Positions 45,607 through 64,000 of a stretch of DNA of 64,000 bases are shown piece by piece (the stretch's first letter is position 1; every line of letters starts with the position of its first letter). Location: contig CALUIZ010000008.1 in NCBI GenBank assembly GCA_944320815.1, forward strand, positions 1 to 64,000, given 5' to 3'. Both the position numbers and the translations under genes were made by a program. Origin of the DNA: an uncultured Phocaeicola sp. (GTDB taxonomy: Bacteria; Bacteroidota; Bacteroidia; Bacteroidales; Bacteroidaceae). Below the pieces are notes generated by a model. The model did no database searches. It had not been told where the DNA came from and saw only the letters and a program-made list of their open reading frames with translations.

Positions 45607-45871
45607 GAAAGTTTTTTTTCGAATCGGTACTTTTACGGCAAGTTTTATATAAAATTATATTGTAGACACTGATTTTGCATCTTGCTTTTCGGCTCCTGTC
45701 TTTTATATAAGTGTCTGTAATACAGTGGAAAATGGACGGGCATATGTGCAGCCTTTTTTTCTTCCGGTTCCTGTCCGGCAGACCGTGTCCGTGTTCGTAC
45801 AGCTTTGTCGTCCCGGCTCTGCTCCTCCGCGGGCTCCCGACGGTAACATTATAATAACAATTAAAACAAGT

Positions 45872-46927
45872 ATGGATATGACAGACAGGTTTGATATCAG
45901 CATGATTGAAAATATCTCTGAATGTATGGAACGTATAGAGAAGAAACTAGACAATCTTTTATATGTATGTGACGTGAAAGGGCGGCAGGGACCTCCGGAG
46001 TTTCCTTTCCGTCAGGACACCAATGTTCCCGAAAAGGAAAGCTCCCTTTTTAGCTTCATGCAAGGTCTGGCCGACCGACTGAGAGGTTTGGGAAAAGACC
46101 GGACGAGCGAAACTTACCGTGCCACGCTGAATAGTTTCAGGCGGTTCAGAAATGGGAGGGACATCCTTCTGGAGGAGCTGGATTCCGACCTGATGCAGCA
46201 GTATGAGGTTTATCTGGAGGGGAGAGGCGTGAGCAGGAACACCATATCTTTCTATATGCGCATCCTCCGGGCCGTGTACAACCGTGCCGTGGAGAAGGGA
46301 ATGGCTTCCCCGCAGAACCCTTTCAGGCATGTTTGTACGAGTGTGGAGAAGACGGCGAAGAGGGCCATCCCGCTGGACGGCATCCGGCGCATCAAGGAAC
46401 TGGACTTGTCTTCTCGTCCTGCACTCGACTGGGCGAGAGACATGTTCCTGTTCAGCTTCTACACCCGCGGCATGTCGTTCGTCGACATGGCTTATCTGAA
46501 GAAGACGGACCTGCACGACGGACTCCTTTCCTACAGGCGGAGCAAGACCGGCCAGCAGCTTGTGGTGAGGTGGGAGAAATGCATGCAGGAAATAGCGGAC
46601 AAGTATGCGGACTCCGCCACGGACTATCTGCTGCCCATCATCACGGAACGCGGGAAGGATGGCAGACTTCAGTATCAGAGTGCCCTCCATCTGGTGAACC
46701 GGAGGCTGAAGGCCGTGTCGAAGATGGCGATGCTGGACACAGGTCTTTCGATGTATGTGGCGCGGCATTCCTGGGCGAGCATAGCGAGGCGCAACAATGT
46801 GCCTTTGTCCGTCATCAGTGAGGGCATGGGGCATGAATCGGAGGCCACTACCCAGATATACCTTGTCTCTCTTGACAATTCACTGATAGACAAGGCGAAC
46901 CACCAGATATTGAGCGGTCTGGAATGA
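45872..46927 (+). CDS. Tyrosine-type site-specific recombinase, probable capsule-promoter invertase
   Basis: A 351-residue tyrosine recombinase. Residues 70-165 are the SAM-like core-binding domain (SETYRATLNSFRRFRNGRD) and 180-345 the catalytic domain. Active-site residues are Arg in FYTRGMSFVD, Lys in RRSKTGQQ, Arg-His in YVARHSWASIA, the His in GMGHES, and the nucleophile Tyr in TTQIYL. Tyr replaces the first His of box II, which is common in Bacteroides enzymes. The start at 45872 is chosen over 45725 because the extra 49 residues look like untranslated leader. The gene is next to a 381-bp segment between inverted repeats and then a UpxY-type gene. In Bacteroides capsule loci such recombinases flip the operon promoter. 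Confidence 0.92.
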   Translation: MDMTDRFDISMIENISECMERIEKKLDNLLYVCDVKGRQGPPEFPFRQDTNVPEKESSLFSFMQGLADRLRGLGKDRTSETYRATLNSFRRFRNGRDILLEELDSDLMQQYEVYLEGRGVSRNTISFYMRILRAVYNRAVEKGMASPQNPFRHVCTSVEKTAKRAIPLDGIRRIKELDLSSRPALDWARDMFLFSFYTRGMSFVDMAYLKKTDLHDGLLSYRRSKTGQQLVVRWEKCMQEIADKYADSATDYLLPIITERGKDGRLQYQSALHLVNRRLKAVSKMAMLDTGLSMYVARHSWASIARRNNVPLSVISEGMGHESEATTQIYLVSLDNSLIDKANHQILSGLE

Positions 46928-47178: not shown

Positions 47179-47201
47179 TCCGTCTCTTATGAAGAGATGG
47201 A
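47179..47201 (+). repeat. Left inverted repeat of the invertible segment
   Basis: A 23-bp site with core TCTCTTATGAAGAGATGGA. Its reverse complement recurs at 47583-47605 with one mismatch. The site is itself nearly palindromic: 10-bp half-sites TCCRTCTCTT and AAGAGATGGA flank a 3-bp spacer (ATG here), the form of a tyrosine-recombinase crossover site. Confidence 0.85.
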
Positions 47202-47210
47202 TTCATGCCG

Positions 47211-47241
47211 CAAAAGTAACACAAAAAAAGAGAATAAGAAA
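47211..47241 (-). promoter_or_regulatory. Capsule operon promoter, in the OFF orientation
   Basis: On the minus strand TTTC (47241-47238), 19 bases, then TACTTTTG (47218-47211): a full -7 box and three of four -33 bases at standard spacing. It points away from the capsule genes. Confidence 0.65.
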
Positions 47242-47379
47242 GATTCTGTCTATAAAAATCTGATTTACTGAAAGCTTTCCTTTGCAGCCTGGTCTGATGA
47301 GGAAACTGGCTTTCAAAGGCTTCCTGCACACTTTTGTAATCAAACACGTAATTTTTCCCAATATAATCCCGATAAATTC

Positions 47380-47466
47380 TATAGTCTGGCTGCTAGACCG
47401 TATAGACTGCATATATGGTCTATATAGTTCAACAGCCAGTCTATACAGACTGACAGCCGGACTATA
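47380..47466. repeat. Cluster of five TATAGAC-type motifs inside the invertible segment
   Basis: TATAGTCTGGCTG (47380-47392) and TATAGACTG (47401-47409) run rightward. GGTCTATA (47417-47424), CAGCCAGTCTATA (47433-47445) and CAGCCGGACTATA (47454-47466) are inverted copies. All share a TATAGNC core within 87 bp. They may be binding sites for a regulator or accessory recombinase sites. Confidence 0.55.
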
Positions 47467-47582
47467 AAATTATTCAGGTTGTTTTCAATTTTCGGAGCGG
47501 GACGCATTTTCATTCCACTTTGCAGGAGTAGACGGAACATGTCAATCGCTAAATATCTGTATATAAGAACATTATTCATGTG

Positions 47583-47605
47583 TCCATCTCTTCATAAGAG
47601 ATGGA
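47583..47605 (-). repeat. Right inverted repeat of the invertible segment
   Basis: The reverse complement of the left repeat with one mismatch. The 3-bp spacer reads CAT on the plus strand, opposite to the left copy, as needed for inversion rather than deletion. Confidence 0.85.
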
Positions 47606-47776: not shown

Positions 47777-48886
47777 ATGGACAACGGACGCAAGTGGTTT
47801 ATCATGACTTCTCCCGACCCTAAGCTGGTAGAACTGAAACTGCTGGAAGAGAATATCCAGCGGGAGAAGGATGGCATGCCCACTTTCCAATATTTCATTC
47901 CCTATCAGTTTCTGAAACATCGGGTGGCCGACTCCAACCCCGAAGACGAGGCGGAGGACGGGCGGTTCTTCAATCCGATGAACCGCGCGGATGTGTCGGC
48001 CAACAACCAGCTCCGCACGGCCCTGAAGCGGTATATCTTCATCCGTTCCAGCGACCGGGATCTGGAGGCCCTTTTGGGCGGGAGGGAGAACCACGACTGT
48101 TACCGCACGCTCTGGTTCTACCGCGACAAGAACCGGAACAAGCTCACCGTCTCCGACGACGCGATGGGCAGTTTCATTGATGCCTGCTGCGACCGCCGCA
48201 TCAATTTTGAGGTATGGCCTTGCACGGACCACATCGGCGAGAATGCGGAGGTAGTGCTCAACACCACACCTTTCAAGGGCTACAGGGCCCGTGTGCTGGA
48301 GATGCGGCAGGACAGGAAGGGCTTTTCGCTCACGGTGGGCATCTACGTGCTTCAGGGCACGATGTACCTGCGTCTCCCTTCCCTCCGTCTTGAGGACGTG
48401 CTCTACGAACCGAAGAACGCCGACCCGGTGGTCCGCGAGAACAACCGCTACCGCCTGATAGAGGACGTGCAGCGTCAGCTTTTCGGTGTCATGTCCCGCC
48501 GCATGGAGGGCGGCCGGAGTGAGAAGTCGAGGCACAAGGACGCTTCCCTGCTCGACTCCCTCTACAATTACCGCTACCGCACCTTTTCCGGCGACGCGAT
48601 GCGCCGCAAGTTCCGTGCGCTGATGCTCCTGTGCGCCGTCCTGCGCGGCGACAGGTTCGGTACGGAAGAGCTGGTGGTGGAGGTGAAGAAGGAGCTTGAC
48701 GGCATCGAGAGCCGTCCGAAGAGCAAGATGAGCGTGTCAGTGCGTGCCTTCCTGCAGTCCGCGCTCTACATCGCCACGCGCGACACCTCCTATTATAAGG
48801 AGGCGATGGAGTATTTCAACGCACAGAAGAAGCTTTCGGAGGTGCAGCGGGAGCTGGTGGAGGCGATGGAGAAATATGAACATTAA
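47777..48886 (+). CDS. UpxY-type (NusG-like) capsule transcription antiterminator, long form
   Basis: A 369-residue protein. It opens with a NusG N-terminal-like domain (KWFIMTSPDPKLVELKLLEEN...FQYFIPYQFLK and LKRYIFIRSSDRDLEALL). A KOW-like segment follows near 158-215 (VLNTTPFKGYRARVLEMR, then YLRLPSLRLEDVLYE). The final 150 residues are an extra helical domain (SLLDSLYNYRYRTFSGDAMR...KEAMEYFNAQKKLSEVQREL). Known UpxY proteins such as UpaY of B. fragilis are about half this size. Being the first gene after an invertible promoter and before the glycan genes fits a role in letting RNA polymerase read through the long capsule operon. GC content is clearly higher than in the following genes. 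Confidence 0.85.
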   Translation: MDNGRKWFIMTSPDPKLVELKLLEENIQREKDGMPTFQYFIPYQFLKHRVADSNPEDEAEDGRFFNPMNRADVSANNQLRTALKRYIFIRSSDRDLEALLGGRENHDCYRTLWFYRDKNRNKLTVSDDAMGSFIDACCDRRINFEVWPCTDHIGENAEVVLNTTPFKGYRARVLEMRQDRKGFSLTVGIYVLQGTMYLRLPSLRLEDVLYEPKNADPVVRENNRYRLIEDVQRQLFGVMSRRMEGGRSEKSRHKDASLLDSLYNYRYRTFSGDAMRRKFRALMLLCAVLRGDRFGTEELVVEVKKELDGIESRPKSKMSVSVRAFLQSALYIATRDTSYYKEAMEYFNAQKKLSEVQRELVEAMEKYEH

Positions 48887-48898
48887 ACAAAAAATAGA

Positions 48899-49138: not shown

Positions 49139-50456
49139 TCAGAAAGACATTGTGATAGCCGTAGCTGGGACAGGATATGTAGGATTAAGTATAGCTACAT
49201 TGCTTGCTCAGCACCATCGGGTTGTGGCCGTTGACGTGATACCTGAAAAAGTAGACTTGATCAATCAACACAAGTCTCCCATTCAAGACGAATATATCGA
49301 GAAATATTTGGCGGAAAAGTCTTTGAATCTTATGGCGACTCTTGACGGTAGAGATGCCTATAAAAATGCTGATTTTGTGGTGATAGCGGCTCCTACGAAT
49401 TATGACCCGGTAAGAAATTACTTTGATACGTCTCATGTGGAAGAAGTAATAGATTTGGTATTGGAAGTGAATCCAGATGCGGTAATGGTCATAAAGAGTA
49501 CTATCCCAGTCGGTTACTCCCGTAGTTTATATTTGAAATATGCGCAAAAAGGAGTAAAGAAATTCAATTTGCTTTTCTCCCCGGAATTCTTGCGTGAAAG
49601 TAAAGCATTATACGACAATCTTTATCCGAGCCGTATCATTGTGGGATACCCTAAGATCATTGACAGACAGGAGTTTGCGGAAGAGAACGAAGCCATCAAA
49701 TCTGTAACTGACGTAGATCGGATGCAGGAGGCCGCCAGAACATTTGCCGCGCTTTTGCAGGAAGGTGCCATCAAAGAAAACGTAGATACACTTTTCATGG
49801 GCATGAAGGAGGCTGAGGCCGTAAAACTGTTTGCCAACACTTATCTTGCCCTTCGCGTGAGCTATTTCAATGAATTGGATACGTATGCTGAAATGAAGGG
49901 GCTTGATACGAAGGCAATCATCGACGGTGTCTGTCTTGACCCCCGTATAGGGACCCATTATAATAATCCGAGTTTTGGTTATGGAGGATATTGTCTGCCT
50001 AAGGATACCAAGCAGCTTCTTGCCAATTATGCGGATGTTCCGGAGAATCTTATTCAGGCGATTGTGGAGAGTAACCGGACAAGAAAAGATTTTATAGCGG
50101 ACCGGATATTGCAGAAGGCCGGATATTATAACTATTATAATCGTGGAGATTTTAATCCATCGGAAGAGAAACATTGTGTAATAGGTGTCTATCGTTTAAC
50201 AATGAAGTCTAATTCCGATAATTTCCGTCAGTCTTCCATCCAAGGTGTGATGAAACGTGTAAAAGCAAAAGGGGCAGAGGTTATTGTTTATGAGCCTACT
50301 CTTGAAGATGGAAGCACTTTCTTTGGAAGCCTTGTCGTAAATGATCTTGACAAGTTTAAGATGCAAAGTCAGGCCATTGTTGCCAACCGTTATGACGCTT
50401 GCCTTGATGATGTGAAAGATAAGGTTTATACAAGGGATATTTTCAGAAGGGATTGA
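49131..50456 (+). CDS. ugd: UDP-glucose/GDP-mannose dehydrogenase family protein (probable UDP-glucose 6-dehydrogenase)
   Basis: It oxidises a nucleotide sugar to the uronic acid with two NAD+. It has 441 residues. The N-terminal NAD site is [12 protein letters not shown]. The middle has [23 protein letters not shown], split over the dimer helix region. The catalytic Cys is in [18 protein letters not shown] (near residue 285). The UDP-binding C-terminal domain is complete. The neighbouring UDP-glucuronate epimerase gene makes UDP-glucose the likely substrate, giving UDP-glucuronate for the capsule. Confidence 0.92.
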
Positions 50457-50473
50457 TAATTTAATAAAAGGAT

Positions 50474-51553
50474 ATGTTGTCTTACAATATTCAACTGGAA
50501 AATAAGACTGTTTTCATAACGGGGGTCGCAGGCTTTATCGGTTCTAATCTGGCGAAAAGGCTTTGTCAGAGCATACCGGGCATTAAGGTAATAGGCATTG
50601 ATAATATGAATGATTATTACGATGTCAGATTAAAAGAAGAACGATTGAACAATTTGTCTGACTTTCGGAGGTTTGTTTTCGTGAAAGGTGACATAAGTGA
50701 TAGGGATACAGTAAACAAGATATTTCAGGATTATTCGCCTGATGTGGTTGTGAATCTAGCGGCACAAGCGGGTGTACGTTACAGCATCATCAATCCGGAC
50801 GCATACATCGAGAGTAATCTGATAGGCTTTTACAACATATTGGAAGCCTGCCGTCACAGCTATGATAACGGGCGAACCGGAGTAGAGCATTTGGTTTACG
50901 CCAGTTCAAGCAGTGTGTATGGCAGCAACAAGAAAGTGCCGTATAGCACCGATGATAAGGTTGATAATCCCGTCAGCCTTTATGCAGCAACGAAGAAAAG
51001 CAACGAGTTGATGGCTCATGCCTATAGCAAGCTTTACAATATTCCCGCAACAGGGTTACGCTTTTTTACAGTTTATGGCCCTGCAGGCCGTCCCGATATG
51101 GCATATTTCGGTTTCACGGATAAGCTGTGTGCCGGCAAGACCATCCAAATATTTAATTATGGGAACTGCAGACGTGACTTCACGTATATTGATGACATTG
51201 TAGAAGGGATAGTCAGAATAATGCGGCATGCTCCGGAACGGAAAAGCGGTGAGGACGGATTGCCGGTTCCTCCTTATAAAGTATATAATATAGGAAATAA
51301 TCATCCGGAGAATCTGTTGGATTTCGTGACAATATTACAGGAAGAGTTGATCCGGGCAAGAGTTTTACCAGAGGATTATGATTTTGATGCACACAAGGAG
51401 CTGGTTCCGATGCAGCCAGGTGATGTGCCTGTGACTTATGCGGATACTACACCGTTGGAGGAGGATTTCGGGTTCAAACCGAGTACTTCATTAAGAAATG
51501 GATTACGTACTTTTGCAGAATGGTATGTGAAATATTATAAATTGATAAAATAA
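50474..51553 (+). CDS. UDP-glucuronate 4-epimerase-type NAD-dependent epimerase
   Basis: A 359-residue short-chain dehydrogenase-type epimerase. The NAD site is FITGVAGFIGSNLAKRL. The segment GIDNMNDYYDVRLKEERL is the hallmark of the UDP-glucuronate epimerases (CapI/LpsL). The active site has Ser in ASSSSVYGSN and Tyr-x-x-x-Lys in SLYAATKKSNE. It probably turns UDP-glucuronate from the upstream dehydrogenase into UDP-galacturonate. The gene follows ugd by 17 bases. Confidence 0.92.
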   Translation: MLSYNIQLENKTVFITGVAGFIGSNLAKRLCQSIPGIKVIGIDNMNDYYDVRLKEERLNNLSDFRRFVFVKGDISDRDTVNKIFQDYSPDVVVNLAAQAGVRYSIINPDAYIESNLIGFYNILEACRHSYDNGRTGVEHLVYASSSSVYGSNKKVPYSTDDKVDNPVSLYAATKKSNELMAHAYSKLYNIPATGLRFFTVYGPAGRPDMAYFGFTDKLCAGKTIQIFNYGNCRRDFTYIDDIVEGIVRIMRHAPERKSGEDGLPVPPYKVYNIGNNHPENLLDFVTILQEELIRARVLPEDYDFDAHKELVPMQPGDVPVTYADTTPLEEDFGFKPSTSLRNGLRTFAEWYVKYYKLIK

Positions 51554-51609
51554 TGCAGAATATAGATTTTGCATATGCAATTTAAAGATAAATTCAAATT
51601 TATACATGA

Positions 51610-52977
51610 ATGGAGGGCTTTTCTTTTGCGAGAAAAATAAAATACAGATTAGTAAATCAGAATACAAGGACTAAACAATCATTAAGAAACTCTTTATATA
51701 TGTTCCTTATTAGGATGATGTCTATGGGAATTAGTTTTTTATACGTTCCCATTTTGATACATCAACTTAATAATGTGAATTATGGAATATGGTTAACGCT
51801 CACTTCAATTGTATCATGGTGTAGTTTTCTTGATATTGGTTTAGGGCATGGTTTAAGAAATTTACTGGCGGAAGCCATTGCAAAAAATGAAAAAGACAGG
51901 ATGAAAAGCCTTGTAGGGACTTCTTATATAATCTTGTCAATAATAAGTCTTTTGTTTATCCCTATAGTATGCATCGTTTTTCCGTTCTTTGATTGGGCTA
52001 GAATTTTAAATGCTCCTCCTTCGATGGGGGTAGAATTACTTGTATTGTCAATTGTTGTCATTATATGTTTTTTCCTGCAATTTACACTGCGTTTAATAAA
52101 TTCGATATTATTTGCTGTGCAAAAACCTGCATTATCTTCTTTTATTAGTTTTATCGCACAATTTATAGCTTTTATCGTGGTCTTTATACTTTCTTTACAA
52201 GATGAGAGTTATTCTTTGTTAACTTATGGAAGCATTATTTCTATAATCCCTATAGTAGTTATGCTCTTTTATACCCTTATCTTATTTAGAACTCAATTGA
52301 ATTTCTTGTCATTTACATTAAAAGATATAAGATTTTCATTTGCCCCTCAATTATTTAATTTAGGTCTTAAATTCTTTTTTATTCAACTGACAGCCATCCT
52401 TTTATTCCAAACTAATAATTTGATTTTAGCTCATGTGGCGGGTCCTGATAAAGTGACGGATTTTAACCTTTCTTATAAATATATTGGAATTATATCAATG
52501 ATATTCACCATCATTGTTACTCCAATGTGGTCTGCAACTACAGATGCTTATCATAGGCAGGATTTTGATTGGATAAGAAAAACTATTCGTGTCCTGCGGA
52601 AAGTATTTCTTTTAATGTCAATAGGAGGAATTATTTTGGTTGTAATGTCTGGGTGGGTATATTCGATTTGGGTAAAGGATGCAGTACAGGTCGATTACGG
52701 AATCCAGATTCTTGTTTTGCTCTATTTCCTTTGCAGTATGTGGTGCGGAATCCATTGTAACATAATTAATGGTATCGGCAAAGTTAAACTACAGTTTGTA
52801 ATGACCACGGTAGAGGCCTTTGTTCATATTCCTCTTGCAATATTTTTGGGGAGATTGTATGGCGTATATGGTGTTCTAACTTCTATGTTCCTTATGACTT
52901 TTATAAACACGATTTGGGAGCCAATTCAAATAAATAAAATTCTGAACAATAAAGCTACTGGAATATGGAATTCTTAA
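51610..52977 (+). CDS. wzx: Wzx-type polysaccharide flippase
   Basis: A 455-residue integral membrane protein with about 12 helices, MOP/PST superfamily. The N-terminal pattern SLYMFLIRMMSMGISFLYVPILIHQLNNVNYGIW is typical of Wzx (quoted across two helices, positions 27-62)... in short, RMMSMGISFLYVP then NNVNYGIWLTL. It would move lipid-linked repeat units to the periplasm for polymerisation. Base composition is markedly AT-rich from here on. The end overlaps the next glycosyltransferase start by 13 bases. Confidence 0.9.
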   Translation: MEGFSFARKIKYRLVNQNTRTKQSLRNSLYMFLIRMMSMGISFLYVPILIHQLNNVNYGIWLTLTSIVSWCSFLDIGLGHGLRNLLAEAIAKNEKDRMKSLVGTSYIILSIISLLFIPIVCIVFPFFDWARILNAPPSMGVELLVLSIVVIICFFLQFTLRLINSILFAVQKPALSSFISFIAQFIAFIVVFILSLQDESYSLLTYGSIISIIPIVVMLFYTLILFRTQLNFLSFTLKDIRFSFAPQLFNLGLKFFFIQLTAILLFQTNNLILAHVAGPDKVTDFNLSYKYIGIISMIFTIIVTPMWSATTDAYHRQDFDWIRKTIRVLRKVFLLMSIGGIILVVMSGWVYSIWVKDAVQVDYGIQILVLLYFLCSMWCGIHCNIINGIGKVKLQFVMTTVEAFVHIPLAIFLGRLYGVYGVLTSMFLMTFINTIWEPIQINKILNNKATGIWNS

Positions 52978-54110
52978 GAAGGAAGATTGAAAAACTGCTC
53001 CATATAAAAAAGAATGATGCGGTTTATAATATAAATTATGATGCATTAGGAGGACAAAAAAGAGTTGCTGTTATATATATAACTAAGATTTTATCACAAC
53101 AATTAAATGTAAATGAAATAAGACATGTAAATATTTTACATGCATTTCAGATGATAAAAGTATTGATAGGACAAGGTTATGCTATTGATTTGTATCCGTG
53201 CGCAAGCTATACACCGGATTCTTTAAAATACAATCATTATGATATAATTTTGGGATTCGGACAGAATTATATTAAGCTATGTGCTTTAAATCCTTGCGCA
53301 TTAAAAATATTGTTTGTAACAGAAAATGCTCCTTGGACTGTAAAAGATAATTTTTCACAACGATTGTCATATTATAAAGTAAGGCATGGTAAGATTCCAT
53401 ACACTTTATTGCGAACACAATTTTATAATAAAGAAATGTTTGATATTTCCGATGTTGGGATTATTATGACAGGCACATATAATTTCAAAGGGATGCAGAA
53501 TTGTTTTAAGAATGCGTTTCGGATTAATGTGAATGCGTTGTTTAATCCTGATACTAATAAATGCCCTACTAAAGATTTTACATCATTAAAAACTAATTTT
53601 GTGTGGTTTGGCTCAAACGGACTGATACATAAAGGATTGGATATTCTTATAGATAGTTTTGCTCAATTACCAAATTATTGTCTGAATGTATATGGTGCAC
53701 CGGGAAAAGAAATAAAAGGATTTTCCATACCAGAAAATGTGATAATACATGAGAGTGTGAATGTCTTTTCTAAAGACTTTATAGATAAGGTCATTAATCA
53801 GAATGTGTTTGTCGTGTCACTTTCATGTTCAGAAGGTATGATGTCTGGTGTGGCCACTTGTATGGCGCATGGGTTGATACCTATAACTACAAAAGAAACA
53901 GGTTTTGATGATGTCTCAGGTAATATTACATTTGATTCATTTGAAATTAAGGATGTGGTTGATGTAATTATAAAGGCTGCCAATATGAAAGGAGAGGAAT
54001 TGCAGGCTTTATCAACTAAAATATTTGAATATAGCAGGAAAGAGTATTCATTGAAAAAATTTGAATCATCTTTTAGTCAAATAATGAGTGAGGTAAATAA
54101 AATTGAATAG
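52965..54110 (+). CDS. GT-B type glycosyltransferase
   Basis: A protein of 381 residues. The C-terminal half has the GT-B pattern: TNFVWFGSNGLIHKGLDILI near residue 210, CLNVYGAPGKEIKGF, and SLSCSEGMMSGVATCMAHGL with the acidic residue that contacts the sugar nucleotide. GHGL-like IPITTKETGFDDV follows, as in family 4-like enzymes. The N-terminal half is unusual (RVAVIYITKILSQQL). Acceptor and donor are unknown. The start overlaps the end of wzx, indicating translational coupling. Confidence 0.8.
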   Translation: MEFLRRKIEKLLHIKKNDAVYNINYDALGGQKRVAVIYITKILSQQLNVNEIRHVNILHAFQMIKVLIGQGYAIDLYPCASYTPDSLKYNHYDIILGFGQNYIKLCALNPCALKILFVTENAPWTVKDNFSQRLSYYKVRHGKIPYTLLRTQFYNKEMFDISDVGIIMTGTYNFKGMQNCFKNAFRINVNALFNPDTNKCPTKDFTSLKTNFVWFGSNGLIHKGLDILIDSFAQLPNYCLNVYGAPGKEIKGFSIPENVIIHESVNVFSKDFIDKVINQNVFVVSLSCSEGMMSGVATCMAHGLIPITTKETGFDDVSGNITFDSFEIKDVVDVIIKAANMKGEELQALSTKIFEYSRKEYSLKKFESSFSQIMSEVNKIE

Positions 54111-54124
54111 TAATTTTATAATAA

Positions 54125-55438
54125 ATGGCAAAAGCAATAGTTTTAAATGAATCATATAAAGTAACATTATTTGATTACTTATATTTTTTCATAATAGTTA
54201 TTTATATGGGACAGGCTACCTCAGAAACAAGTAGAATGGTAGGTTCATTGTCTGGTAATCCTATTCCATTATTGCTGCCTATAGTGTTGACTTGTATTTT
54301 ATGGAAGAAGCATCCCATTTCTTTTAATAATAAGAACTTACATAAGGTATTAGCTATTTATACGATTTGGGCGACTTGTTCGCTGATTAAATATGGAAGT
54401 TACACGACACAGGAACTTTCTTATCATTTTTTTATGGTTTATGCCATTATCATTGCATATATTCATAATCAAATATTTGGATATAAATTAGTACCTCTCT
54501 ATGAAAATGTTCTAACTTTTCTTTGTAAGATAGCGGTCATCGGTTGGCTTGTAGCTGTATTAATACCGGCCTCCGCTTCATTTTTCAGATTGTTTTATGA
54601 AACGGGATACGGCAATAATGTTTTTTATTTATTTACTTGGATGGACCCAGCGAAAGGACAGGCTTATTCTGGTATCATTAGAAATGCAGGCTGTTCTTGG
54701 GAACCCGGTCGTTTTGCTATTATGGTTGCTTTGGCCATATTCTGTAATCTTTGTCAGAATGGAATTAAGTTCAGGAACAATAAAAATATTTGGTGGTTGC
54801 TTATAGCTTTAGCGACGACACAATCTACTACAGGGTATTTTTCTGTGCTGGTTCTTTACATTATATTTATGGTAAAGAAATTCAATCTTAAATATACTTT
54901 TTTACTCATATTAGTTCTAGGTCCTGTTGTTTATGGTTTGATTCAGTTGGATTTTATGGGAGAGAAAGTTACTTCGAGAATATCCGATGCTCAAGATGTT
55001 TCACGGTTGGAAGAACAGTTCTCATGGAATTCTGTCCAATATGAAGAAGGTGAATATTTGGGTTCCATAGATCGTTTTGAAGCTATGGTATTTGAATGGA
55101 CAAATGTGTTAAACGACCCTATATTAGGTTATAGCAGGAATGTGGAGCATTCTTACTTTAGAACTCATATTTCTTCCAATTATGCATTAGCGAATGGTCT
55201 TGTCAAAGTTTTAGGAATGTTTGGTTTGCCATTGGGACTTTATTTCTTCTATATTTTATATCGTGCTTCAGTTACAATAGCTTGTCAGAGTAAGGAAAAA
55301 AGAAAGTTAGGATTGATGGTCTTATTGTGTATGAGTGCAATTTCTTATACCATTCTTTCTATACCAGTATTTACTAGTTTCTGGTTTTATGGTGTTTTTA
55401 TAACTTCTAATAAAACTAATAAAAGGAGTATTAAATAA
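54125..55438 (+). CDS. wzy: Wzy-type polysaccharide polymerase
   Basis: A 437-residue integral membrane protein with about 11 helices. A large periplasmic loop lies near residues 280-345 (EQFSWNSVQYEEGEYLGSID...RFEAMVFEW). The signature GYSRNVEHSYFRTH in that loop, and the NAGCSWEPGRFAIMVALAIF segment, fit O-antigen/capsule polymerases, which join repeat units in the periplasm. Sequence conservation in Wzy is always low, so the call rests mainly on topology and position between glycosyltransferases. Confidence 0.8.
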   Translation: MAKAIVLNESYKVTLFDYLYFFIIVIYMGQATSETSRMVGSLSGNPIPLLLPIVLTCILWKKHPISFNNKNLHKVLAIYTIWATCSLIKYGSYTTQELSYHFFMVYAIIIAYIHNQIFGYKLVPLYENVLTFLCKIAVIGWLVAVLIPASASFFRLFYETGYGNNVFYLFTWMDPAKGQAYSGIIRNAGCSWEPGRFAIMVALAIFCNLCQNGIKFRNNKNIWWLLIALATTQSTTGYFSVLVLYIIFMVKKFNLKYTFLLILVLGPVVYGLIQLDFMGEKVTSRISDAQDVSRLEEQFSWNSVQYEEGEYLGSIDRFEAMVFEWTNVLNDPILGYSRNVEHSYFRTHISSNYALANGLVKVLGMFGLPLGLYFFYILYRASVTIACQSKEKRKLGLMVLLCMSAISYTILSIPVFTSFWFYGVFITSNKTNKRSIK

Positions 55439-55467
55439 ATATCTCATTCAAGAAAAAGTAAGTATAA

Positions 55468-56676
55468 ATGAAAGTATATATTTTGACTAGAGAGCCATTT
55501 CCTAATGGAATGGCTGCAACCAACCGCATAAAATGCTACGCGAAAGCTATCATAAAAAAAAAGGTGGCATGTGAAGTTCTTATTTGTACTCGTACTGAGA
55601 GATATGGAAAACCACCTAAAAATACAATTGGAGATGGTATTTTTGAAGGCATTTCTTATAAATATATAGGAGGAACACCGTTGAGAAGTGGCAATATTGT
55701 TCTCCGACAAATTAATGATAGGATGGATAAGGTGTGGACTATGCTATACCTGTTTAAACATCTGAAAAAAGGCGATATTGTATTAGGATATTGTGGTGTT
55801 TTCCCACATTTTATAAATACGATTATTCGTATAACGCACATGAAGAACGCATTCTATTTTCGTGATTTGTGTGAACTTCCTTATGGTACATCCCAAGAGA
55901 CTGCAAGGAATATTAAACTACGTAAATTTACTTTTTCCAAACAATTTCCATTGTGTGATGGATTTATAGCCATATCGGATACCTTGGTTACATTGGCTGA
56001 AAAGTATAAAAGGACTGATGCTAAGGTACTGAAGGTGCCTATATTGGTTGACTTTGAGAAATATTGTATAGTAGACAAATCGAACGAGGTTGATGTTCCT
56101 TATATATTTCACAGTGGTACTTTGTTTGAACAGAAAGACGGCATATTGGGAATGATTGAGGCATTTGGTATTGCATTGCGCCAAATACCTTTCCCTATTC
56201 GTTTTATTTCTACTGGAAAAATAGAGAATTCACCTCACAAGGAAGCTATTCACGAATTGATAGAGAAATACCATCTGAAGGATAAAATTTTGTTTACCGG
56301 ATATTTATCAGAAAGTGAATTAAGAGATTATTTGTCAAAAGCATCATTAGTCATAATCAATAAGTATGATACTCAACAAAATAAATATTGCTTTTCTACA
56401 AAACTTGCTGAATATTTGGCAGCGAGTAAACCGGTAATTATTACAAAAGTTGGTGAGGCTATGAATTGGTTGACGAATGGCAAAGACGCTTATATTGTAG
56501 AAGCGCAACGAATTGATTCTTTAGCCGAAAAAATAGTTGATGCTTTTACAGAAGTACAGAAACGATATGACATTGCGAAGAATGGCTTCAAGACTTGCAA
56601 GAACAGTTTTGACTATCGGAATTACAGTAAACAATTAATTGATTTTTTTACTCAGATTTCAAATGATACCAATTAA
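55468..56676 (+). CDS. Family 4 glycosyltransferase
   Basis: A 402-residue GT-B enzyme. The N-terminus begins VYILTREPFPNGMAATNRIK with the expected glycine-containing loop. The C-terminal domain has YIFHSGTLFEQKDGILGMIE, ILFTGYLSESELRDYLSKAS, and CFSTKLAEYLAASKPVIIT, where Glu in KLAEYLA is the conserved nucleotide-contacting residue. It carries an A9 run at 55554-55562. The end overlaps the ATP-grasp gene by 14 bases. Confidence 0.87.
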   Translation: MKVYILTREPFPNGMAATNRIKCYAKAIIKKKVACEVLICTRTERYGKPPKNTIGDGIFEGISYKYIGGTPLRSGNIVLRQINDRMDKVWTMLYLFKHLKKGDIVLGYCGVFPHFINTIIRITHMKNAFYFRDLCELPYGTSQETARNIKLRKFTFSKQFPLCDGFIAISDTLVTLAEKYKRTDAKVLKVPILVDFEKYCIVDKSNEVDVPYIFHSGTLFEQKDGILGMIEAFGIALRQIPFPIRFISTGKIENSPHKEAIHELIEKYHLKDKILFTGYLSESELRDYLSKASLVIINKYDTQQNKYCFSTKLAEYLAASKPVIITKVGEAMNWLTNGKDAYIVEAQRIDSLAEKIVDAFTEVQKRYDIAKNGFKTCKNSFDYRNYSKQLIDFFTQISNDTN

Positions 56677-57580
56677 AATTCCTAAAACAAACTTATTGCA
56701 TAGAGCATATGGTAAGATGCTTCACATTTTTTCCCCTTATCTTTCAGACGAGTTATATCTAAAATTACTTTTTCGACATCGAATGGGCTGTCAATTAAAT
56801 TTGGACAATCCAAAGACATTTAATGAAAAGTTGCAGTGGCTGAAATTATACAATCGGAATCCGTTATATACGGTTATGGTTGATAAAGTTAAAGCTAAAG
56901 AATACGTTGCAAGTAAAATAGGTGAACAATACATCATACCGACTTTAGGTGTATGGGAAAATGCGGATGATATTGATTTTGACTCTTTGCCTTCCCGATT
57001 TGTTATAAAGTGCAACCACAACAGTGGTAAAGGTATGTATATCTGTAAGGATAGAAGCAAAATGAATGTGGAAGAAATTCGTAATGGATTACGTAAAGGA
57101 CTCCGCGAGAATTATTACCTGCATGGTCGTGAATGGCCTTATAAAGATGTTCCTCGACGTATTATAGCTGAACAATATATGGAGAGTGAAGACCGGAAAG
57201 AACTTCAAGATTATAAGTTCTTCTGTTTTAATGGTGAACCACGTTTGTGTCAGGTTATAAGCGACCGCTCTACAGATGGTAAAATAGATTTCTATGACAT
57301 GCAATGGAATAGAATAATTGGGTTGCTTGAACCATGCAACGATGTATTTCATAATAGTGATGTCGATTTTCCATGTCCTATATCTTTTAATGAAATGAAG
57401 CGGTGTGCGCATATTTTGGCCGAAGGGATGCCTTTTTCTCGTATTGATTTTTATGATATTGACGGGAAAGCTTTCTTCGGTGAAATAACATTTTTCCCCA
57501 CGTCGGGATTAGGAATGTTTTCTCCAGAATCGTGGAGTGAAAAGACTGGTAATTGGATAACATTACCAATAAAACAATAA
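56663..57580 (+). CDS. TupA-like ATP-grasp protein
   Basis: A 305-residue protein of the TupA-like ATP-grasp group. It begins with helices typical of the group (FRHRMGCQLNLDNPKTFNEK and LQWLKLYNRNPLYTVMVDK). ATP-grasp signatures follow: SRFVIKCNHNSGKGMYICKD with the phosphate-binding loop, RIIAEQYMES, DYKFFCFNGEPRLCQV, and FSRIDFYDIDGKAFFGEITF with the metal-binding Glu. TupA itself helps make teichuronopeptide, in which amino acids are joined to a uronic-acid polymer. With uronic-acid genes upstream, an amide decoration of the capsule is possible (inference). The start at 56663 is the first ATG; the frame above it offers only TTG. Confidence 0.88.
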   Translation: MIPIKIPKTNLLHRAYGKMLHIFSPYLSDELYLKLLFRHRMGCQLNLDNPKTFNEKLQWLKLYNRNPLYTVMVDKVKAKEYVASKIGEQYIIPTLGVWENADDIDFDSLPSRFVIKCNHNSGKGMYICKDRSKMNVEEIRNGLRKGLRENYYLHGREWPYKDVPRRIIAEQYMESEDRKELQDYKFFCFNGEPRLCQVISDRSTDGKIDFYDMQWNRIIGLLEPCNDVFHNSDVDFPCPISFNEMKRCAHILAEGMPFSRIDFYDIDGKAFFGEITFFPTSGLGMFSPESWSEKTGNWITLPIKQ

Positions 57581-57594
57581 TAGCACACAATAAT

Positions 57595-58695
57595 ATGAGA
57601 TTAGCAATATTAATAGATTTTTTTGGTGGAGGTGGGAAAGAACGCAGGTGTCTCCAATTGATAAAAGGATTAAATTGTAACAATATTAAAGACATCCATG
57701 TCATCATGATAGATAATATCATTGATTATCCAGATTTATATAAAACGACTGCCAAAGTTCATATAATAGAACGTCATGGAAAGTACGATTTGGGTGTTAT
57801 AAAAAGGTTATATAAAACATTGAAACAGATTAATCCTGATGTAATCATGACATGGACATTGATAAAAATGTCATTCTATCTCTGTATAATAAAACCTTTC
57901 TTGAAATGTAAATATATTAGTGCAATTGTAACAGCTGCACAGCCCATAAAAAAATATACTATTGATGACATAACGAGATTCATAGCTTTCAAGCAAGCTG
58001 ATGTTATAGTCGGGAATTCTTATGCCGGAATAAAAGCTTATAAAGCACCAATAAAAAAATCATTAGTTATTTATAATGGTTTTGATATGGAGCGTTTGAA
58101 TAAATTAAAGTCTATCGACCAAGTTAAAAATGATTTGTCTTTAAAAACTCCGTTCATGGTGTCAATGGCCGCAAGAATAAACAGACACAAAGATTACCAA
58201 ACTTATATTGATGCAGCAAAGAAAGTGATAGCCCAACGGAAAGATGTAACATTTTATTGCATTGGAAAAGGAGAATTGATAGATTATTATAAAAGCCAAT
58301 TAAATGCGGAAGAACAGAAATATGTAATGTTCTTAGGGTTTAGAAAAGATGTAGATTCAATACTGAATGCATCAACTGTCTCTGTATTATGTACAAACAA
58401 TAAACTTCATAAAGAGGGTGTGTCCAATACTATATTGGAGTCAATGGCTTATGGAGTTCCAGTTGTTGCTACGACAGGTGGAGGTACGGATGAAATAATA
58501 CTTGATGGTGAAACTGGTTTTATTATTCCTCCTTTTGAACCATCTGTTTTGGCTTCAAAGATTAATACATTGTTAGATAGCGAATCATTACGACGGCAAA
58601 TGAGTGAAAAAGCTAAAGAAAGGATACGAAATAACTTTTCGCTGGATTTAATGGTGGAAAATTACATGTCGCTTTTTAATCGGATATTATGCTAA
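57595..58695 (+). CDS. Family 4 glycosyltransferase
   Basis: A 366-residue GT-B enzyme. The start at 57595 gives MRLAILIDFFGGGGKERRCL, with the glycine-rich donor/acceptor loop. The C-terminal domain shows FMVSMAARINRHKDYQTYID, VMFLGFRKDVDSILNASTV and EGVSNTILESMAYGVPVVAT, with the conserved E-x7-E pair (EGVSNTILE). This is the best-conserved GT4 of the locus. The stop overlaps the FrhB-like gene start by 7 bases. Confidence 0.92.
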   Translation: MRLAILIDFFGGGGKERRCLQLIKGLNCNNIKDIHVIMIDNIIDYPDLYKTTAKVHIIERHGKYDLGVIKRLYKTLKQINPDVIMTWTLIKMSFYLCIIKPFLKCKYISAIVTAAQPIKKYTIDDITRFIAFKQADVIVGNSYAGIKAYKAPIKKSLVIYNGFDMERLNKLKSIDQVKNDLSLKTPFMVSMAARINRHKDYQTYIDAAKKVIAQRKDVTFYCIGKGELIDYYKSQLNAEEQKYVMFLGFRKDVDSILNASTVSVLCTNNKLHKEGVSNTILESMAYGVPVVATTGGGTDEIILDGETGFIIPPFEPSVLASKINTLLDSESLRRQMSEKAKERIRNNFSLDLMVENYMSLFNRILC

Positions 58696-59879
58696 AGTTT
58701 TTGAATAATTTCATAACCTTTGATTATTATAAATGCCAGCAATGCGGCATTTGTAAGCCAATTTGTTCCACGAAAGCGATTTCATACACATTGTTGCCTA
58801 ATGGTTTGCAGAATATTTCCATAGATTCAGACAAATGTATCTGGTGCAAGAAATGTGTGAATGCTTGTCCGGCAAATAAAGAAAGTCTTTACACTAATTA
58901 CTTTGAGGAGTTCCCAAATAAAAGATATTTTCTGGGATATAATAAAGATAATTCCCTTCGCCGGGAATCCTCTTCAGGGGGTGTATGCAAGACTCTCATA
59001 ATCGAAGGGCTGAAATCGGGTCTGGTGGATGGAGTTTATTCCTTAAAATGTAGCACTCAATATCCATATGCAGAAGGGGCATTTTATACAAGGGAAAATA
59101 TTCCTGCCTATACTGAGATTCCCAACTCTGTATATCATTCCGTGATGGCGTGTTTGAACTTTACAGCCATACAGAGATGTGATAAACTGATGATTGTAGG
59201 AACGGCCTGTCAATTGCGTGCTTTGGAGAAAGTTGTGAAAAATAAGTGTAATACCCTGATAAAGGTCTGTATTTTCTGCAAGCAGCAGAAAACATTGGAT
59301 TCAACCCGCTTTTTGGCAAAAGTGATGGGTACTAAGATTCCGGAAAATCTAAATTTTTCGACTTGCTATCGTGGAACAGGGTGGCCGGGAATCGTTCGTG
59401 TGAATGAATCTGAACTGCCATGGAACAGGGCGGCTCAGATTCCGTTCGGTAGAAGATTATGGACTGTGCCGGGCTGTGACGTGTGTGGCGATTCATTTGG
59501 AACAGAATGCGGAGCAGACATTTCTTTAATGGACCCATGGGAAATCAGACAGCAGAATGATTTGGGAGAGACATTGATCACGGCGCATACGGAAAAGGGA
59601 CTTCAATTGTTGCAAACAATTCCGAATCTGGTATTGGAGGCTAAAACGTATCAAGAAGTGAAGCCGGCATTGTCTTTGAAAGATGTATGGCGTAAGCAGC
59701 AGCTTGTCCCGTTTTTCAGAGGGAAAGATTGTGATAAGGAAATAATGAAGGCAGGAAAGAAAGAGCGACAACAGAGGAAATGGCTGCAATTGATCGTTGA
59801 AAGATTACCGCGTATGCCATTCATTTTTTATCGGGCGTTGTGCAAATTTCCGGATTTAAGAAATCGCATTTTAAAATAA
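58689..59879 (+). CDS. F420 hydrogenase/dehydrogenase beta-subunit-like iron-sulfur protein
   Basis: A 396-residue protein. Two 4Fe-4S ferredoxin motifs lie at the N-terminus (CQQCGICKPIC near 15-25 and CIWCKKCVNACP near 50-61). The FrhB N- and C-terminal domains follow (RRESSSGGVCKTLIIEGL, MIVGTACQLRALEKVV, PGCDVCGDSFGTECGADISL). This family recurs in polysaccharide loci next to pyruvyl transferase genes. Bacteroides has no F420, so a flavin-linked redox step on a sugar or precursor is possible. The next gene, a pyruvyl transferase family member, starts 1 base after the stop. Confidence 0.88.
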   Translation: MLKFLNNFITFDYYKCQQCGICKPICSTKAISYTLLPNGLQNISIDSDKCIWCKKCVNACPANKESLYTNYFEEFPNKRYFLGYNKDNSLRRESSSGGVCKTLIIEGLKSGLVDGVYSLKCSTQYPYAEGAFYTRENIPAYTEIPNSVYHSVMACLNFTAIQRCDKLMIVGTACQLRALEKVVKNKCNTLIKVCIFCKQQKTLDSTRFLAKVMGTKIPENLNFSTCYRGTGWPGIVRVNESELPWNRAAQIPFGRRLWTVPGCDVCGDSFGTECGADISLMDPWEIRQQNDLGETLITAHTEKGLQLLQTIPNLVLEAKTYQEVKPALSLKDVWRKQQLVPFFRGKDCDKEIMKAGKKERQQRKWLQLIVERLPRMPFIFYRALCKFPDLRNRILK

Positions 59880-59880
59880 T

Positions 59881-60984
59881 ATGGACATTAAAGTAATAAC
59901 TCGTCATGCACCTTCCAATTATGGCTCGTTGCTTCAATCAATGGCTACTATAACTATTCTTGAGAGGTTGGGATGTCGGTGTGAGATTATTGACTATATC
60001 CGTAAGGATGAACAAGGACTGAAAGCAATTCTGGCGGCTCTGAACAATAAGGAAGGATGGAATGGGAACTTTATAAAGAAAATGTTGTTCATTCTTTTCA
60101 GGTATCCGGAAGAAAAAATTGCAGAGCGAAAGTTTGAAAAAATGCGTTCACAATTTCTGAAACTTACCAGAAGATGTGCTACCATTAAAGAGCTGTCTAC
60201 ATTGACGGCTGATGTCTTTATGACAGGAAGTGATCAGGTTTGGGGGCCTACAATTGATGGGAAATATGACGAGGCTTATTTTCTTTCATTTGTCCGGAAT
60301 GCTCCGAAAGTCGCTTTTGCCGCCAGTTTTGGCAGAACAGACTTTAATGATTCAATCTTGTTAGCATATAAGAGTCTGTTGTCTACCTATAAAGCAGTTG
60401 CCGTGCGAGAGAATACGGCAGTAGATTTGTTGAAACAAATGGGCGTTCCATGTGTCGGGCAGGTATTGGATCCGACATTGTTGCTTACCGGAGATGAATG
60501 GAGCAAATTCATAAACAGGAAAAACTCTTTGCCTCAGTGCTATGTGTTGGTTTATCAGTTGCATAATAATCCGACACTGAATGAATATGCGAAGAATTTT
60601 GCAGCTCATGTTGGATTGCCTCTTTATCGTGTTTCTCCCACATTCCATCAGTTCAGGAGAGGGGGCAGATTCATTTATCTTCCTGATTTAGGGGAGTTTC
60701 TTTCTGCAATAAAGAATTGTTCATATTTCATTACTGATTCTTTTCATGGAACGGCATTTGCCTTGAATTTCAATAAGCAATTCATTGAGATTTTGCCAAA
60801 TAACAAGACAGGAAGCAGAAACCAGAGCATATTGAGACTGACAGGTTTGGAGAATCGTATAGTGACTGATTTTGATGATTTTTCTATAAGCGAAAGATTC
60901 ATTGACTTTAGTAAAGTCAACCAGATACTGGAGTATGAAAGGAATAAATCATTAAACATCTTGCAAGCAATTATTGGTTTATGA
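59881..60984 (+). CDS. Polysaccharide pyruvyl transferase family protein
   Basis: A 367-residue protein. The N-terminus has TRHAPSNYGSLLQSMATITI, the family-typical start for ketal pyruvate transfer enzymes (CsaB/WcaK type). Further motifs are DVFMTGSDQVWGPTIDGKYD near 117, AVRENTAVDLLKQMGVP, VLDPTLLLTGDEW, and YFITDSFHGTAFALNF near 285 with the conserved Ser-Phe-His-Gly. It would add acidic pyruvate ketals to capsule sugars. It pairs with the FrhB-like gene. The stop overlaps the next gene start as ATGA. Confidence 0.9.
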   Translation: MDIKVITRHAPSNYGSLLQSMATITILERLGCRCEIIDYIRKDEQGLKAILAALNNKEGWNGNFIKKMLFILFRYPEEKIAERKFEKMRSQFLKLTRRCATIKELSTLTADVFMTGSDQVWGPTIDGKYDEAYFLSFVRNAPKVAFAASFGRTDFNDSILLAYKSLLSTYKAVAVRENTAVDLLKQMGVPCVGQVLDPTLLLTGDEWSKFINRKNSLPQCYVLVYQLHNNPTLNEYAKNFAAHVGLPLYRVSPTFHQFRRGGRFIYLPDLGEFLSAIKNCSYFITDSFHGTAFALNFNKQFIEILPNNKTGSRNQSILRLTGLENRIVTDFDDFSISERFIDFSKVNQILEYERNKSLNILQAIIGL

Positions 60985-62243
60985 AAATTATACTTATCAC
61001 TTATCCGGTTTCTCCTTATAGAGGTTCGGAGTTTGCCGTATCGTGGAACTATATCGTTAATATGTCCAAATACCATGAGCTTTTTGTATTGTATGGGACA
61101 TCCGGTAATGGATTTGGTAATGTCAGCGAACTGCAAGATTGGTTGAAGTCACATGATTTACCGAATGTACACTTCATTGATGTGCAGGTGCCTAAAAATA
61201 GTATCTCAAACTTTCTGGCATTTTGCCGTAAAATAAGTTATACCTATGGCTCGTATATTCAATACAAGTACTATTACAGATTGGTATATGAAAAGGCGAA
61301 AGATATAATCTCTCGAGAAAGAATTGATGTTGTGCATTATTTAAATCCAATAGGGTTTAAGGAGCCGGGAAGATGTTGGAAAATAAAGAGTGTACCTTAT
61401 ATCTGGGGGCCAATACAGGGAGTGGAAAACAGGCCCTTTTGTCTATATAGGGCTTTAGGAATGAAAGGTTGTTTGGATGCGATTGTTCGACTTGTGTTCC
61501 ATAATGGGATTTTGTTTTGTTCTTCAAAAATACGAAAAGCAATAAAAAGAGCGGATTATTTATTTGCCGCTACTCCACGAACCGTAAAACAGATGAAATC
61601 TATTTTTCATAAAGATGCAATTTATTTGCCTGAAAATGGTATTCTGGAAATGAAATGCTATAATCCTATTCATTATGAAAAAAATGAAACTTTTCGGATT
61701 GTATGGGTTGGGGCTGTCTGTTATAGAAAAGGGCTCGTTTTGTTATTGGAGGCGTTGAATCAGGTGAAAAACGAGAATTGGCAATTGGATGTATGTGGCA
61801 GTGGAGAACTTTTGAATAAATTGAAGTCAATCGTCAGGGATTCTCATATCGAGTCCCGAATCAAATGGCATGGGAATTTGCCAAGGGAGGACGTTTTTGA
61901 ATTGTTTCGGGCGGCTCACCTCCATGTGATTTCGTCACTTGGTGAAGCAACGACAACAGTATTATTTGAAGCTATGTCATGCGGAGTTCCCACGATGACA
62001 TTAGATCATTGTGGCATGGCGGGTGTCGTATGTGAAAAATGTGGCATCAAGATTCCGATTCGCTCTTATAGGCAAGTTATATCTGATATTGCCAAGAATA
62101 TAGATTGTTTGATAGAAAATCCTGAAAGAATACATACACTCTCACAAGGTGTTTTGGAATGTTCCAAAAAATACATGTGGGAAAACAGGATTAAGATATT
62201 CAATGAAGTTTATGAAAAAGCTGTATTGAAGTATAAGGTTTAA
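60981..62243 (+). CDS. Family 4-type glycosyltransferase
   Basis: A 420-residue GT-B enzyme. The N-terminus IILITYPVSPYRGSEFAVSW has the loop typical of acceptor binding. The segment VPYIWGPIQGVENRPFCLYR is seen in a subgroup of Bacteroides capsule GTs. The C-terminal domain has FRIVWVGAVCYRKGLVLLLE, GNLPREDVFELFRAAHLHVI and GEATTTVLFEAMSCGVPTMT. Donor and acceptor are unknown. It overlaps the pyruvyl transferase gene by 4 bases. Confidence 0.88.
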   Translation: MKIILITYPVSPYRGSEFAVSWNYIVNMSKYHELFVLYGTSGNGFGNVSELQDWLKSHDLPNVHFIDVQVPKNSISNFLAFCRKISYTYGSYIQYKYYYRLVYEKAKDIISRERIDVVHYLNPIGFKEPGRCWKIKSVPYIWGPIQGVENRPFCLYRALGMKGCLDAIVRLVFHNGILFCSSKIRKAIKRADYLFAATPRTVKQMKSIFHKDAIYLPENGILEMKCYNPIHYEKNETFRIVWVGAVCYRKGLVLLLEALNQVKNENWQLDVCGSGELLNKLKSIVRDSHIESRIKWHGNLPREDVFELFRAAHLHVISSLGEATTTVLFEAMSCGVPTMTLDHCGMAGVVCEKCGIKIPIRSYRQVISDIAKNIDCLIENPERIHTLSQGVLECSKKYMWENRIKIFNEVYEKAVLKYKV

Positions 62244-62297
62244 ATTTCGCTTGATAAGACTCCGTTTTTCAATATGTAATTAAATCTATATAACACA

Positions 62298-63365
62298 ATG
62301 AATGCATATAAAATCAGTGTAATTATTCCATGCTACAATATATCTCAATATGTGGAGAATTGCATGAAATGTCTTAGAGCACAGACATTTAAAGAGTTTG
62401 AGGTAATTTGTGTCAATGACGGAAGTACTGATGATACACTTGCGATGTTAAATAAATATAAATGGGGGGGGGTAAAAGTGCTGTCCACAAAAAATCAAGG
62501 TGTATCACAAGCCAGAAATGAAGGAATCAAACTGGCAAAGGGTGATTATCTTTATTTTTTTGACCCAGATGATTATATCGAACCGGAAACATTAGAAATC
62601 ATTTACAGCAAGGCAGTTGAAACAGATAGTGATGCCGTACAATTCAATTTCCGGTTAATAAAGATTCCAGCTAATATCAAGTGTGAAGGACGGAATGGGA
62701 ATAAAAAGACTGGTGTATATGAGAATGAAAATATTATTAAAGAATATCTATCTCGTTTTATAGGTTATTCGGCAAGTGACATTCAATTATTCGGAACAAG
62801 AGATTTTTATGCAAAGAAAGAGATGGGAACTGTATGGAGATTTCTTTTTAAACGTTCTGTAATAATAAATAATGATATTTTGTTTCCAGCAGATGTGCGT
62901 TTGAATGAGGATTCTTTATTTAATTGTAGATTCTTTTGTTTTGCCTCAAGAATTTATTATATTGATAATATCTTATATACATATTATTCAAAAGATAATG
63001 GGGCAATGATTTCCTCATTAAAGAATTTTGATGTTCTGTTCCTGAATAAATTAGCAGCGAAAAATGAAAGAATGGTTCTTCGGAATTTGTATTTAGAGAA
63101 ATGGGGAATAGATATTTTTCCATTATTTGCAGGTTCACTATTCTTGTCGGCATTAGAAATAGCAGTTAAATCAAGTTATTCATTAAGTAATATTAAAAAG
63201 TTTCTTGAATATGTCGCAGATAAGGATGTGAGAAATGCCATTTCTATCATTCCATTCAGCGGGAATTTAAAGATAAAAGCCTTGTTGCTTTTATTTAAAA
63301 TGCGATGTTTCATTTTCGTGTATCTAATGATTTATTTTATGAACAAAATTGGGATGAAGATTTAA
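62298..63365 (+). CDS. Family 2 glycosyltransferase with in-frame G9 tract
   Basis: A 355-residue GT-A enzyme. The N-terminal catalytic domain has SVIIPCYNISQYVENCMKCL, the donor-binding Asp in VICVNDGSTDDTLAML, QGVSQARNEGIKLAKGDYLY, and the DxD motif in FFDPDDYIEPE. The C-terminal third is less conserved and ends in a hydrophobic helix (FVYLMIYFMNKIG). Codons 56-59 (WGGV) are encoded by nine consecutive G at 62464-62472, so the gene is open in this sequence but would frameshift with a one-base slip. It begins 54 bases after the previous gene. Confidence 0.92.
   Translation: MNAYKISVIIPCYNISQYVENCMKCLRAQTFKEFEVICVNDGSTDDTLAMLNKYKWGGVKVLSTKNQGVSQARNEGIKLAKGDYLYFFDPDDYIEPETLEIIYSKAVETDSDAVQFNFRLIKIPANIKCEGRNGNKKTGVYENENIIKEYLSRFIGYSASDIQLFGTRDFYAKKEMGTVWRFLFKRSVIINNDILFPADVRLNEDSLFNCRFFCFASRIYYIDNILYTYYSKDNGAMISSLKNFDVLFLNKLAAKNERMVLRNLYLEKWGIDIFPLFAGSLFLSALEIAVKSSYSLSNIKKFLEYVADKDVRNAISIIPFSGNLKIKALLLLFKMRCFIFVYLMIYFMNKIGMKI
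62464..62472 (+). repeat. G9 homopolymer in the GT2 coding region
   Basis: Nine G in a row in an otherwise AT-rich gene. The frame is intact at nine. Loss or gain of one base would truncate the enzyme soon after residue 60. Confidence 0.85.
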
Positions 63366-63452
63366 TCTGAAATGTTGTTTTCTTTTTGTTTCAGGAAAAA
63401 TGCTTCTCTAACTAAATATATCAATAAAGCAGTAATCTTAAAAGATAGTTAT

Positions 63453-64000
63453 ATGCAGATAAATACCCCCCCCATTCGCTAAATAACGTTAAATCAAATC
63501 GTTACGAATCCCTTGACGGTCTCCGCGCATACGCTGCAATTGGCATTGTCATGATGCATGTGCTTGCAAATGTTGTGGTCAAGCCGAGTGAGAATTTTCT
63601 GACGGATGTCATCATTCCGTTTTTTACGAATTTCACGCTTCTGTTTATGGTGGTAAGTGCTTTTTCGGTGTGCTGCGGATATTATGACAGGGTGAAGAAT
63701 GGGGCGATGAGGCCGAATGATTTCTACAAGAAGCGGTATCGGCGGCTGCTTCCGTTTTTTGCCTTGATGGTCATCATTTCATTGGCAAAGGATCATGACT
63801 ACAAGGCCTTGTGCGAGAGTTTTGCCAACTTGACTTTGTGTTTCAATCTGTTGCCGAATCCTTCTATTGAAACAATCGGTGTGGGATGGTTTATCGGGAC
63901 TGTGTTCACGTTTTATCTGCTTTTTCCGTTCTTTACGTTTCTGTTGGACAATAAGAAAAGAGGCTGGTTCGTATTGGTGGTTTCGTTAATCTTCTGCTTG
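63453..64000 (+). CDS. Acyltransferase-3 family membrane protein, frameshifted at a C8 tract, 3' cut by window end
   Basis: The body, read from about 63473 to the window end, is an acyltransferase 3 domain that O-acetylates or O-acylates surface glycans. It shows RYESLDGLRAYAAIGIVMMH, a membrane helix IIPFFTNFTLLFMVVSAFS, and YKKRYRRLLPFFALMVIISL. The likely start is ATG at 63453, but the eight C at 63466-63473 put the body out of frame, and translation stops after nine codons (MQINTPPIR). With nine C the frame joins perfectly to the body. The body frame has no other start before the ATG at 63551, which would remove the conserved SLDGLRA. I read it as a phase-OFF gene or a sequencing slip. 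Confidence 0.8.
63466..63473 (+). repeat. C8 homopolymer after the acyltransferase start codon
   Basis: Eight C in a row, 11 bases after the A of the putative start codon. Eight gives a frameshift and stop; nine opens the whole gene. Confidence 0.85.

Follow-up and report, generated by a model that had tools for sequence, protein, structure and literature searches.

The acyltransferase gene that crosses the end of the analysed stretch of DNA (the window, positions 1 to 64000 of a contig that measures 107984 bases, in a draft genome of 70 contigs) is very probably switched on and off at random. A run of eight C lies between its putative start codon and its coding frame, and we regard it as highly likely that the gene is a simple-sequence contingency gene which this run switches by slipped-strand mispairing. 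Because of what the comparison with homologues revealed about the tract, its ON and OFF states, the intact frames, the dN/dS ratios and the length differences, slipped-strand phase variation of the acyltransferase gene is strongly supported at the level of sequence.

The putative start codon and the OFF frame that it opens occupy positions 63453..63482 on the plus strand, and an ATG is found at the equivalent place in the ON homologues L022, L058 and L062. The start frame reads ATG CAG ATA AAT ACC CCC CCC ATT CGC and is closed by a TAA at 63480-63482, which confirms the original prediction of a C8 run soon after a putative ATG (position 63453) and of a stop after nine codons. The tract itself spans 63466..63473 on the plus strand with the flank AAATA-C8, and a C or G tract occupies the same place in eight homologues. 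It is a pure single-base repeat, and one unit gained or lost shifts the acyltransferase frame. That an intact acyltransferase 3 frame follows the tract had likewise been predicted and was borne out by a profile match to PF01757 (Acyl_transf_3; E 9.9e-34, residues 20-337, profile positions 2-321 of 326). This coding frame, which is out of register with the ATG, extends on the plus strand from 63474 to 64000 and past the window end to contig position 64510; it is open from 63449 onwards, measures 354 codons from stop to stop and is of full length.

The sequenced copy is OFF on paper. Two motifs that are essential in AT3 proteins (PMC9833829) are both present in the acyltransferase, namely R-X10-H (RAYAAIGIVMMH) in the first helix and RXXR (RYRR). 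No ATG, GTG or TTG was found in the acyltransferase frame between the upstream stop and the conserved N-terminus, and the first ATG in this frame is located just before the His, so that a start there would lose the essential Arg of R-X10-H. It is the lack of another in-frame start, together with the loss of this Arg from the later ATG, that makes the C8 allele read as OFF. The OFF copies among the homologues likewise lack an alternative in-frame start.

Fifteen usable homologues were drawn from genome contigs, the order, the family and three genera. The gene is uncommon and scattered, with hits in 4 of 393 genomes of the order and 8 of 399 of the family, and we found no close relative among 60 congeners, nor in viral contigs or plasmids. 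In nine of the 15 homologues, an uninterrupted stretch of 7-10 C or 8-9 G stands between start codon and first membrane helix; a run of at least eight is present at the tract position in eight of them, or nine with the C7 counted. The tract carriers are approximately 40-53% identical to the window protein, where measured. Four carriers are OFF (the window with C8, L021 with C7, L023 with C8 and L060 with C10) and four are ON (L022 with C8, L058 with C9, L061 with G9 and L062 with G8), while L059, whose contig begins inside the run and is missing the upstream sequence, was left out of the ON/OFF counts. The remaining six (L024-L026 and L052-L054) have no tract, which means that the acyltransferase gene does not need one. 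When the tract lengths of related genomes were compared, as the original prediction had suggested, they ranged from C7 to C10 and from G8 to G9, and one fixed length was not seen. Two observations concern the contigs themselves. The contig of L022 (MSGY01000009.1) is labelled Christensenellaceae and carries polysaccharide genes of the Bacteroidales type, probably reflecting a binning or naming error, and the contigs of L059 (G637 contig C22) and G864 contig C82 both start inside long C runs, pointing to a tendency of draft assemblies to break at such tracts.

Across species, the tract keeps its anatomy and its position, differs in length, is made of either C or G and is found in both frames, with the coding constraint kept; this supports the predicted contingency gene. 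The clearest length difference on a shared background involves L058 and L060, which have nearly identical flanks (ATGGATACAAATCGACAAATTA) and yet carry C9 in the ON state and C10 in the OFF state, respectively. On the tree, at least three tract gains or losses are required on well-supported branches. The use of C in some lineages and of G in others suggests that what selection has convergently favoured is the repeat and not the residues. Several considerations weigh against a switch: C8 is short for fast switching, six homologues do without a tract, the source genome has no general excess of long G/C runs, and the comparison of orthologue lengths spans species, where ordinary indels also build up.

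A C8 run as such is not rare in the source genome; it is the position that is unusual. The 3.14-Mb genome contains 13 distinct C or G runs of at least eight, most of them in genes without a sign of switching. A simple composition estimate, calculated by hand, gives approximately 40 such runs, so that fewer were observed than estimated and a general excess of long G/C tracts in this genome was rejected. From 13 runs per 3.14 Mb, the probability of a run of at least eight in a given 100-nt stretch amounts to approximately 4e-4 (hand calculation). Given this low value, the three or more gains or losses and the use of C or G according to lineage, the shared tract position cannot be a coincidence, even with common descent and the denser tracts of some relatives taken into account.

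We considered whether the frameshift could be a simple loss of function, with the gene a pseudogene and the tract merely the site of the indel, and judge this to be unlikely. Runs are indel hot spots, and a homologue without a detected tract (L057) contains an internal stop. Nevertheless, all four OFF copies keep an undamaged frame of approximately 340 codons past the tract, with no second lesion, and tracts arise repeatedly and independently, as C and as G. In addition, dN/dS values of 0.08-0.13 were obtained for all pairs of L058, L059 and L060, and because this set includes an OFF copy, the values argue that the acyltransferase protein is under purifying selection in this sub-clade.

Transcriptional slippage or ribosomal frameshifting through the tract, yielding a constant low amount of protein from every tract length, is an explanation that we hold to be quite improbable. 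The short leader followed by an intact downstream frame would permit read-through of this kind, and other bacteria are known to show slippage at homopolymers, but polymerase slippage is less likely on C and G runs than on A or T runs. Moreover, no Rfam element was found around the C8 tract, and a recoding site would have no need of the in-frame state that some homologues already show. Finally, an assembly or sequencing error that hides a different tract length and a gene that is simply ON is very improbable: homopolymers are error-prone, the genome is a 70-contig draft and contigs of relatives break at tracts (L059), but a C8 run is easily spanned by a short read, and an off-by-one error would alter the state only and not the switch, as the tract stays in nine homologues.

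In the favoured model of slipped-strand phase variation, mispairing during replication would add or remove one C, and only one length class in three would connect the start codon to the integral-membrane acyltransferase-3. The enzyme would then O-acylate the surface polysaccharide built by the same operon, and cells would switch between ON and OFF inside a population.

According to gene calls and profile matches, this operon is of the Wzx/Wzy type and extends on the plus strand from 47777 to 64000 and further to contig position 67934. It comprises genes for a UDP-sugar dehydrogenase, an epimerase, a flippase, a polymerase-like protein, a pyruvyl transferase and glycosyltransferases, and continues past the window end with a GT4, a radical SAM and a GT4 gene, up to 67934. 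The pair of GT4 glycosyltransferase genes and the radical SAM gene are also found near the homologues L021, L022, L067 and L068, and these repeated downstream neighbours indicate that the acyltransferase is part of a module that recurs at operon ends. Polysaccharide gene clusters surround every tract-carrier locus that was read out to its neighbours (the window, L021-L023 and L064-L067). Further tracts were noticed in genes for hexapeptide-type acetyltransferases in polysaccharide loci (L067:632 G9, L064:4813 C11 and L123:1504 C10), of which the one in L067 looks frame-broken at its G9 tract.

Directly upstream of the acyltransferase lies a gene for a family 2 glycosyltransferase (62298..63365, plus strand, profile match), which is in frame, i.e. 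ON, and contains a G9 tract (62464..62472, plus strand, flank G9-TAAAAG) approximately 1 kb upstream of the C8 run. With nine G, this gene has a frame of 355 codons, which any other length class shortens to 58-74. The G9 run probably works in the same way as the C8 run. No relative of this GT2 enzyme with a G9 tract was found in 399 genomes at E 1e-40, and for this reason the case for the G9 tract as a switch appears weaker than that for C8.

The operon may also be controlled as a whole. A tyrosine recombinase gene (45725..46927, plus strand; PF13102 and PF00589) is located beside a candidate invertible promoter segment of 427 nt (47179..47605), which is delimited by 29-nt inverted repeats at 47179-47207 and 47577-47605. 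These repeats match at 26 of 29 positions, compared with 23 of 29 for the best pair in 200 shuffles. A TAnnTTTG element is present on the minus strand just inside the left arm (47211-47218) and is directed away from the operon; judging from this one match in one assembly, the candidate promoter would be in the OFF orientation. The first gene of the operon (47777..48886, plus strand) encodes a weakly UpxY-like antiterminator (NF033644, E 3.5e-5, 23.9 bits against a curated cut-off of 100) and had no Pfam match. A recombinase, inverted repeats and a putative promoter element, the components of a Bacteroides-type invertible-promoter locus, are all found upstream of the operon, and by analogy with such loci we infer inversion here. 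This fits the statement in the original prediction that capsules are usually switched by inversion, as an invertible promoter seems to belong to this operon too. One operon may combine two layers, DNA inversion and slippage: the candidate promoter may switch the whole operon, and decoration and expression could vary independently. An additional inverted repeat with 42-nt arms and a 27-nt gap is situated inside the candidate segment (47368-47478) and might represent a hairpin or a regulator site.

Long homopolymers are not confined to polysaccharide operons in the relatives. By hand count, roughly 50 distinct runs of at least nine are present in genome G521, 16 in G530 and 13 in G637. Many of these runs (L103-L162) are found in genes that, judged by eye, encode SusC-like receptors, hybrid two-component sensors, acyltransferases or glycosyltransferases, and frequently they sit close to the 5' end or where the frame breaks. 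Among the species G530, G637 and G521, five of six orthologous tract pairs differ in length (C12/C11, C11/C9, C9/C10, C10/C11 and C9/C10, with C9/C9 as the equal pair) at a surrounding identity of 71-97%. For the hybrid sensor pair L118/L103, the stretch read forms a single open frame of 944 codons in the C11 copy and is split in the C12 copy.

A one-sided TTTA precedes long C runs in L064-L069, L103-L162 and the window (62464 and 63466). Of 63 long tracts, 36 have TA as the two bases just ahead of the C run, as opposed to 8-9% of C4 and C5 runs in the same DNA; the Fisher p values are 5e-14 for G521, 3e-8 for G530 plus G637 and 6e-4 for the source genome, on counts that are not fully independent, as some loci are orthologues. 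The mirrored flank is rare in G521, G530 and G637, and in the source genome, with only 12 tracts, about as frequent as the TA flank itself (4 vs 5). Since the flank is found on C-coding (10 of 14), G-coding (30 of 50) and intergenic (8 of 15) tracts, it is neither a codon nor a stop-codon effect; the idea that G runs followed by a stop codon (GGGTAA) give rise to TTTA was dismissed on the grounds that C-coding and intergenic tracts have the flank too. We propose only tentatively a Bacteroidaceae homopolymer phasome of surface-glycan enzymes, SusC-like receptors and hybrid sensors, layered on promoter inversion, in which the TTTA context shared on either strand would hint at a dedicated tract-generating or slippage-promoting mechanism.

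Descriptions of phase variation on the surfaces of gut Bacteroidales deal almost entirely with DNA inversion. If our reading is true, a homopolymer layer would let one strain vary capsule acylation and linkages independently of capsule type, which would be relevant to phage interactions, immune recognition and colonisation. Such switches would escape inversion-finding software and be mis-annotated as pseudogenes, and their recurrence in receptors and sensors, together with the TTTA flank, raises a new general question that can be tested. The source genome is in the same family as Bacteroides- and Prevotella-like relatives, and our search of the open-access literature turned up no account of homopolymer phase variation acting in Bacteroides, Prevotella or relatives, though earlier ones may exist in subscription papers. 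Slippage as such is a known mechanism; new to us are the host group, its layering with a candidate invertible promoter, the convergence of C and G tracts and the TTTA flank.

Among systems already described, two reports come nearest: in B. fragilis 638R, an acetyltransferase gene is frameshifted by one extra C in a run of four, for which slippage was suggested as a possibility (PMC3090145), and for Ornithobacterium a putative phase-variation mechanism is mentioned without being specified (PMC13183296). B. fragilis also has invertible-promoter polysaccharide loci, including the Tsr19-driven large-capsule locus (PMC3090145). The window operon resembles these loci in its tyrosine recombinase, inverted repeats and putative promoter element, and perhaps in its first gene, a weak UpxY-like match, and differs from them in the second, gene-level slippage layer that it would contain. 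Haemophilus influenzae oafA encodes a phase-variable AT3 O-acetyltransferase of lipooligosaccharide (PMC9558356), and the window gene shares with it an AT3-family enzyme, with acyl transfer predicted for the window gene, the decoration of a surface glycan and a frame-changing repeat. In oafA the repeats are tetranucleotides, according to a title cited in PMC9558356, whereas the window gene has a mononucleotide C/G run and belongs to a Wzx/Wzy-type operon of the Bacteroidaceae. Closest in the repeat itself are the poly-G/C contingency genes of Campylobacter and Neisseria, such as C. jejuni cgtB with 8 or 9 G (PMC6437147), in which runs of similar length toggle a glycan enzyme by one-base changes; unlike these, the window gene occurs in another phylum, in a genome with few such tracts, and long tracts here show a one-sided TTTA flank.
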